Below are positions 7,789 through 8,266 of a stretch of DNA of 13,316 bases, piece after piece. Below the pieces are notes generated by a model, which was not told where the DNA came from, did no database searches, and worked only from the letters and a program-made list of their open reading frames with translations. Both the position numbers and the translations under genes were made by a program. The stretch is from positions 1-13,316 of the forward strand of contig QMUF01000032.1 in the NCBI GenBank assembly GCA_003663525.1, read 5' to 3'. The DNA is from Thermococci archaeon. GTDB taxonomy: Archaea; Methanobacteriota_B; Thermococci; Thermococcales; Thermococcaceae. The number at the start of each line of letters is the position of its first letter. The first letter of the stretch is position 1.

Positions 7789-7866
7789 GCGGTGGTAGTC
7801 TAGCTTGGTCTAGGACACCGGCCTCCCAAGCCGGTAACCCGGGTTCAAATCCCGGCCACCGCACCA
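7789..7866 (+). tRNA. tRNA-Gly, anticodon CCC
   Basis: Cloverleaf is complete. The acceptor stem GCGGTGG (7789-7795) pairs with CCACCGC (7856-7862); the anticodon stem CCGGC/GCCGG encloses loop CTCCCAA with anticodon CCC, reading GGG glycine codons; the T arm is CCGGG-TTCAAAT-CCCGG. Discriminator A7863 is followed by an encoded CCA (7864-7866). There is no intron. Position 54 is T, the target of the m5U/m5s2U pathway represented elsewhere in this window. Confidence 0.97.
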
Positions 7867-7918: not shown

Positions 7919-7968
7919 GATGGGGGAGAAATTATCTCACGCGCCCGCCTAATCTTTAAGGGGTTGAT

Positions 7969-8137
7969 TCCGTAAGGCACTCCCTCTCTGGGAGAAACGG
8001 CTGTGTGGGAATGAGACTCCAAGTGTTGCCTTAGGGGAGCTGGCTCCCCTTGGCAGGGTTGCTGTCAACCAGCCTAATGTAGGGGTTCCGCATTGGAATC
8101 ACCTACAAACCCCTTCCTGACGGAAGGGGTAGTTGAC
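7969..8137 (+). mobile_element. Minimal IS200/IS605-type (ISDra2-like) element without transposase
   Basis: A 169-bp unit directly follows TTGAT (7964-7968) and ends in TTGAC (8133-8137). These are the left target/cleavage and right cleavage pentanucleotides established for ISDra2. The left end carries a hairpin CTCCC-TCTCT-GGGAG (7980-7994), optionally extended by CCGT/ACGG (7970-7973/7997-8000). The right end carries CCCCTTCC-TGAC-GGAAGGGG (8110-8129), three bases before TTGAC. Hairpins 5' of the right cleavage site and 3' of the left one are the subterminal palindromes of this family. No tnpA or tnpB reading frame, whole or broken, is present, so it would be a MITE-like copy mobilised in trans. 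GC content is far above the flanks, though GC-richness starts some 25 bases before TTGAT, a point against the exact left edge. Confidence 0.55.
8027..8129 (+). ncRNA. Candidate structured RNA (omega-RNA-like core)
   Basis: Four hairpins follow each other with almost no spacer. First, TGCC/GGCA (8027-8030/8052-8055) enclosing GGGGAG/CTCCCC (8034-8039/8044-8049), loop CTGG. Second, GGTTG/CAACC (8057-8061/8066-8070), loop CTGT. Third, TGTAGG/CCTACA (8078-8083/8102-8107), with inner pairs 8084-8089/8095-8100 and loop GCATT. Fourth, CCCCTTCC/GGAAGGGG (8110-8117/8122-8129). In IS605-family elements the 3' end of tnpB plus the right end encodes the guide RNA scaffold, and this block sits in that place. 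No protein frame or known archaeal RNA (SRP, RNase P, C/D box) fits. Transcription is not shown by sequence. Confidence 0.5.
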
Positions 8138-8266
8138 TGGCCATGTACAGTCCTTAAACTTCATAAACCTTGTATTCCTCTCTTCTTTCTTTGAGAAGCT
8201 TCTTTGTGGCCTATAATATTCACAATCGAAATACTAAGAAATGTGTGCAAAGAAATATTGTTTGCA
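8138..8266. other. Gene-free spacer downstream of the element
   Basis: AT-rich and without a supportable gene. It holds a pyrimidine-rich stretch on the plus strand (8174-8193) that might end a transcript from the element, a short palindrome AGAAGCTTCT (8203-8212 region), and a 7-bp hairpin GTGCAAA/TTTGCAC (8245-8251/8261-8267) that starts at the antiporter stop codon on the minus strand. If the element is an omega RNA, bases from 8138 onward are the guide. Confidence 0.5.

Follow-up and report, generated by a model that had tools for sequence, protein, structure and literature searches.

A mini-element beside a tRNA gene

The window, 13,316 bp in full, is contig C32 of its source genome (G000), which is 83% complete and consists of 220 contigs. 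Between a conserved tRNA-Gly(CCC) gene on the left (7789..7866; like all features given below, on the forward strand) and the 3′ end of an antiporter-like gene on the right, judged from its open reading frame, lies a mini-element of 202 bp (7936..8137) that runs from CTCACGC at its left end to GTTGAC at its right end. The tRNA gene is outside the element, and no ORFs of at least 60 aa overlap the element. The RNA fold of positions 7958-8137 was far above those of shuffled sequences (z −4.15), and the DNA fold of 7950-8150 had a z of −3.44. At Rfam gathering thresholds the tRNA alone passes in the window, and the element matches no family above threshold. A match to HEARO on the minus strand, antisense to the element (8064-8137; 20.6 bits, with 83 needed), is probably due to chance. 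Searching plasmid records with the element returned zero matches, and a scan for bacterial promoters and terminators was uninformative (the host is an archaeon).

The extent of the element was established by alignment with five other copies, i.e., C36, C17 and C33 of the same genome, and C140 and C225 of a close relative (G083). Homology to the other copies runs leftwards through a TTGAT (7964..7968) and ends at CTCACGC (7936), and this internal TTGAT is not conserved, two of the five solo copies having TCAAT or TCGAT instead. The right end, GTAGTTGAC, is common to all six copies examined and is followed by unrelated flanks. The pentamer preceding the left end is TTCAT in four solo copies (C36, C17, G083:C140 and G083:C225), ATTAT in the window (7931..7935) and TTTTT in C33; the C17 element begins with CTCTCAC.

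The original prediction had described a 169-bp, ISDra2-like unit (7969-8137) flanked by TTGAT and ending in TTGAC, with further copies preceded and terminated in the same way. Both pentamers are present (7964-7968 and 8133-8137), and TTGAC is the true right end, common to the copies. TTGAT as the left end was ruled out by the alignment of copies, whose homology passes through it to 7936, and by the empty sites, the exact ones of which show TTCAT, the pentamer that the four solo copies follow. We therefore give the shorter, TTGAT-flanked version next to no credence. The likeness to ISDra2 also fails at the target, which is TTCAT in four of the six Thermococcales copies, not the TTGAT target/TAM of the ISDra2 subgroup. 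Hairpins had been expected inside each end: the right one (8109-8117 with 8122-8130) is present in all six copies, but the left one proved to be an internal stem. The true left-end hairpin is found in C17, G083:C140, G083:C225 and C33, and is missing from the window copy and C36.

Copies, empty sites and decay of the window copy

A search of the source genome with positions 7950-8160 returned five matches: the window itself, C36 (98%), C17 (82%), C33 (85% over query positions 115-188) and a weak match of 21 bases on C172. The first three contigs beyond the window thus hold the further copies that had been anticipated in this genome. When 94 genomes of the family were searched with the longer C17 copy (best 7 candidates per genome), strong matches were found only in G000 and the close relative G083, which holds two solo copies and one tnpB piece, while three further genomes gave only right-end matches of 26-27 bases. 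A full-length RNA model run over the family genomes added only weak matches of 22-32 bits to the known copies. Short right-end matches, GGGCGGGAAG..GGAGGGGTAGTTCAC, were also seen at L019, L020, L021 and L027 in several relatives, with approximately 100 nt viewed on each side.

The joined flanks of five copies were compared with 13 genomes of the genus. Uninterrupted sites were detected for G083:C140 in G000:C11 (98%) and G079 (93%), and for G083:C225 in G079 (95%). At base level the junctions read TTTCAT|AACA for G083:C140, where the G079 site differs slightly a few bases to the right, and CTTCAT|CTTAC for G083:C225, which is ambiguous by two bases (CT); neither shows a duplication. A fixed short target that is not duplicated, as in the IS200/IS605 family, is thus seen at these two insertions, though not cleanly at the window copy. 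C36 and C17 had zero uninterrupted sites in the 13 genomes. The flanks of C33 were matched across in G079 (raggedly) and in G082 and G077 (both at 75%); its insertion also occurs in G083, as judged by the right flank, where the contig ends inside tnpB. The sister copies jumped after closely related species split.

The simple empty site proposed for the window locus was not found in the two relatives examined. The element is lacking at the corresponding sites of G083 (L035) and G079 (L036), which carry 71 and about 67 bp, respectively, between ATTAT and the right flank that the window lacks. These extra bases end in TTTTTTCGT, and in the relatives TTCGT directly precedes the right flank (8138 onward). 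Most likely, the element inserted 3′ of TTCGT or TTCAT, and a neighbouring deletion then removed sequence right up to its left end. By identity G079 resembles an outgroup, which makes a later insertion in the relatives the less likely alternative. The difference between the window and the two relatives stops exactly at the left end of the element, as if it came from a transposition reaction.

Within the element, the window copy retains a left-end remnant of 14 positions (7936..7949). Relative to G083:C225, both the window and C36 are short of about 45 nt that include the left hairpin, and the window additionally lacks 31 nt after 7949 that hold a promoter-like box, TTAAGTTTTTAAACAC, which C36 keeps (length and losses assessed by eye). 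The window copy, without left hairpin and promoter-like box, is probably immobile, and its expression, if any, would come from a flanking promoter. The left hairpin is absent from both C36 (L002) and the window, although the two copies occupy different sites: either a copy moved without this hairpin, or it was lost twice.

A predicted TnpB guide RNA with covarying helices

The predicted RNA consists of a 5′ domain (7958..8053), with an outer stem and a GGGGAGCTGGCTCCCC hairpin, and a predicted omega-RNA core of the last 84 nt (8054..8137). In the core, stem 1 (8057-8061 with 8070-8074) encloses a loop containing GTCAAC (8064..8069) and is followed by stems 2/3 (8078-8107), the right-end hairpin and the terminal GTTGAC (8132..8137). 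The hexamer in the loop, GTCAAC, is the complement of the terminal GTTGAC, and the two form the 5′ and 3′ strands of a predicted pseudoknot, the 3′ strand being at the same time the right end of the element. The predicted guide, located by analogy to ISDra2 and by position only, is the 20 nt of flank just past the right end (8138..8157).

The fold was evaluated on 11 sequences, including five solo copies, two Thermococcales tnpB loci and four loci from other archaea. Of 339 cells, 94.4% were paired, against 29.8-51.7% in slid versions of the structure. Double changes occurred at 12 pairs and in 32 cells, compared with shuffle means of 6.2 and 10.8, respectively (the shuffles ignore relatedness), and the 26 further pair types were equalled by 24 of 500 shuffles. 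Most changes are in stem 1 and the right hairpin, and three inner pairs of stems 2/3 suit only part of the sequence set. These compensatory changes, a purely comparative form of evidence, support the helices of the predicted RNA. The six pseudoknot pairs are invariant within the GTTGAC class, so this class alone is neutral on them.

A core model (R1) was applied to 43 hand-chosen sources, giving 41 matches, 38 of them distinct (11 of the 38 trained the model). An exact complement of the terminal hexamer was found within the first 40 nt, in the stem-1 loop, in 33 of the 38. When each row was given the hexamer of another row, the number averaged 17.5 and never exceeded 27 over 2000 trials; in shuffles the mean was 0.34 and the maximum 4. 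The hexamers came in three matched variants, GTTGAC/GTCAAC, GTTCAC/GTGAAC and GTTTAC/GTAAAC; loop and terminal hexamers thus change together across TnpB classes. The five sequences without the full hexamer are L122 (one mismatch), L033, L050, L057 and L110, the last a cut match with the hexamer complement just upstream. Sequence comparison recovers the predicted pairing of the stem-1 loop with the last bases before the guide, and the stems that follow the loop, as in an omega-RNA.

Origin from a tnpB-only element

The C33 copy (L004, G000:C33:4652-5892) is a tnpB-only element of 1,240 bp with the same ends as the minis. A frameshift breaks its tnpB into pieces of 135 and 258 aa, the larger of which matches NF040570 (guided_TnpB) with a score of 179 (cut-off 100). 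A public protein (P0001) has 98% identity to the 258-aa piece and the same length and start, which suggests that the break is not a sequencing slip, and an intact public relative (P0002; 379 aa) has 95% identity. In the 94 family genomes, the search for an intact tnpB of the TTGAC class (E 1e-30) found only the frameshifted C33 gene, the sole tnpB of this class in the source genome, and a piece at a contig end (G083:C159).

The inside of the window element contains a decayed tnpB 3′ end (7971..8129), which matches P0004 by blastx (58 aligned residues, 50% identical). The match contains a stop, and a gap of 5 residues takes the place of the last RuvC motif (NAD); the protein is therefore dead. 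C17 and C140 best match the C-terminus of another TnpB (P0051/P0049; 79-82% over 28 residues, blastx). A TATA-like box, TTAAGTTTTTAAAC, is kept in four of the five solo copies, and G083:C140 also retains a stretch resembling the first tnpB codons. With the ends of a C33-type tnpB-only element and a decayed tnpB 3′ end inside, the mini-element arose by internal deletion, and its predicted RNA, as is typical of omega-RNAs, originates from the 3′ end of tnpB together with the right end. The idea that the 5′ RNA domain is foreign cargo was dropped, as blastx shows the decayed tnpB 3′ end there.

Related tnpB loci were found in named records. Four of seven (L091-L094) keep the GTAGTTGAC end and an upstream GTCAAC, L096 is without the GTAGTTGAC end, and L097 stops before it. 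Left ends were assigned by eye and partly on the pentamer, as TTCAT in L092, L093 and L097 and ATCAT in L091, which is weak support given that the left-end sequences of these four loci differ from those of the minis and that several TTCATs occur near L093. The TnpB relatives at L091, L092, L093, L094 and L097 have 65-89% identity and come from MAGs labelled Sigynarchaeota, Archaeoglobi, Methanoxibalbensis and Alkanophagales. The GTTGAC end is present in four of those MAG loci where visible, and transfer between distant archaea is possible.

A second family of solo elements

Model R1 detected 46 places in 14 of the 94 family genomes (stricter filters, best 45 candidates per genome, rough E-values). 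We classified 50 hand-collected places, drawn from the R1 places, the four named-record loci and the earlier loci, by tblastn with four TnpBs; L025, L028, L033, L050, L057, the cut L148 and duplicates were left out. Twenty-one were tnpB-linked (at least 90 aligned residues upstream), 5 had <220 nt upstream, and 24 were solo, including 11 for which the upstream sequence spans only 229-378 nt. A box, TTTAAATAC or TTTTTAAAC, lies inside the element and no more than 260 nt from the core in 20 of the 24 solo places and in 0 of the 21 tnpB-linked ones, a soft contrast, since the motifs were picked after viewing the copies and tnpB-linked loci have coding sequence there. As for the four solo places without an inside box, that of the window falls outside the element, and L099, L005 and L159 are without any.

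A second family of solo omega-RNA minis, larger than the first, occurs in the same genus; its members start with C and end in GTTCAC. Its copies (L149, L150, L152, L153, L155-L160, L109, L114, L116, L120, L122, L126 and L005) are in genomes G000, G083, G079, G076 and G084, with at least 6 solo copies in G000 and at least 7 in the close relative. The TTTAAATAC box is found 109-114 nt before the core in 13 of 16 copies examined. Six solo insertions were chosen and four of them searched, and for each of the four at least one congener has an uninterrupted site; in these sites TTTAT is joined to the flank, or TTCAT in distant congeners for L149. L157 is probably also present in G083:C87, where its flanks are 251 nt apart. 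On a tentative reading, two tnpB families of the genus yielded solo omega-RNA elements.

Proposed mobilization and guide function, and alternative explanations

We conclude that the window very probably carries a solo TnpB omega-RNA gene as the cargo of a now decayed, non-autonomous copy of an IS200/IS605-type element, a judgement that covers identity and origin. The original prediction of a transposase-less IS200/IS605-type element is thereby upheld, and so is its structured-RNA cargo, the TnpB guide-RNA nature of which had been missed. We see even chances that such RNAs would be used by TnpB.

A Y1 transposase supplied in trans would move the copies as single strands. Matches to its domain (PF01797) were not found in the 83%-complete source genome, and numbered 36 in 25 of the 94 family genomes. 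None of the 14 TnpA loci examined out of these 36 had the GTAGTTGAC end nearby within the fetched flank, and the TnpA loci in which both ends were read differ from the minis (e.g., TTTAAC...GTTCAC). The RNA would be transcribed through the right end, with the flank becoming the guide, and a TnpB acting in trans would cut alleles without the element, i.e., TTCAT beside guide-matching DNA, favouring re-copying. TnpB has been proposed to help an element copy itself back into its empty site (PMC8612924).

It is conceivable, if somewhat doubtful, that the minis are instead plain derivatives of the kind known as PATEs, gutted IS605-type elements moved by TnpA in trans, in which the RNA structure is a passive leftover of the tnpB 3′ end; this account concerns function, and its probability overlaps with that of the identity claim. 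PATEs are known in Haloquadratum walsbyi, and resemble the minis in being transposase-free and IS605-like, with near-terminal palindromes, no target duplication and strain-specific insertions (PMC3119063). They were described in 2011, before TnpB guide RNAs, and the account available to us contains no guide RNA or promoter analysis (PMC3119063). Such an origin would also agree with the lack of an intact partner tnpB among the genes found in the source genome and with a window copy that is without a promoter-like box. A passive leftover is harder to reconcile with a reading frame that decayed while the omega-RNA-like fold was kept, the frame being broken and the hexamers still complementary, or with the same layout in two families, and the inside TATA-like box (20/24 solo, 0/21 tnpB-linked), soft as that contrast is, also speaks against it.

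It is improbable that the element is a small RNA domesticated by the host, which may be the case for sRkB and sRkC of Pyrococcus abyssi. These two, the only ones of six OrfB-related repeats to have BRE/TATA boxes, are expressed and bind L7Ae in gel shifts (Phok 2011, PMC3124441). The main species are 209-218 and 340-343 nt for sRkB and about 137 and 211 nt for sRkC (PMC3124441). Together with the four similar repeats, these ncRNAs resemble the minis in being repeated in Thermococcales and in their kinship to the 3′ end of an orphan OrfB (tnpB) gene, but they differ from the minis in being presented, in the sections of that paper at hand, neither as mobile nor as guides of TnpB (PMC3124441). 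The full-length RNA model (E 0.01) had 0 matches in nine g3 genomes, taken as Pyrococcus (stricter filters, best 28 candidates per genome). Contrary to a host role, insertion sites differ among close species, strong matches are confined to 2 of the 94 family genomes (best 7 candidates per genome), and the window copy is decaying.

Possible significance and comparison with known systems

Cas12 is regarded as a descendant of TnpB, the guide RNA of which is usually encoded inside the tnpB element; Altae-Tran 2021 is reportedly the original OMEGA paper. The solo omega-RNA elements could perhaps be a recurrent parasite of a parasite, many with their own promoter, that borrows both TnpA and TnpB, although we hold this with less than even confidence. 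If true, the guide would be the DNA beside each new insertion, so every jump would retarget the RNA and reprogram cutting to the allele without the element, and a self-retargeting homing drive would fit into the smallest element possible. Guide-RNA genes that split off with a promoter kept or gained, and that move themselves, would show a route to separate guide-RNA loci. They could also explain the persistence of multi-copy, transposase-free IS605-like repeats where transposase genes are few or absent, and each solo RNA would predict which DNA is cut. A search of open-access titles and abstract starts, in which omega-RNA is a poorly searchable term, found no description of promoter-bearing solo omega-RNA elements.

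Circular omega-RNAs of archaea are likewise IS200/IS605 guide RNAs seen as transcripts, but they are described with IS200/IS605 transposase genes, and solo loci do not appear in the portion of the report consulted (PMC12558985); further context is given in the available part of PMC10969869. Compared with ISDra2 (PMC8612924, PMC10097598), the target of the minis would likewise double as the TAM, but the motif is TTCAT rather than TTGAT, and the ISDra2 RNA comes from a tnpB-bearing element, whereas the minis are solo. In the ISDra2 omega-RNA, position −6 is G, positions −5 to −3 run from U to C and −2 is A (PMC10097598), and these terminal bases do not fit the TTGAC end if −1 counts as the final base of the element, which also weighs against the originally proposed ISDra2 likeness. 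Its pseudoknot joins bases −5 to −3 with a strand enclosed by stem 1 (PMC10097598), and the spacing is about 100 nt, against about 70 in the minis. The order of parts in the ISDra2 omega-RNA/reRNA nevertheless matches the one predicted here: stem 1 with the pseudoknot strand, stems 2/3, a further stem, the terminal strand and the flank-derived guide (PMC8612924, PMC10097598).
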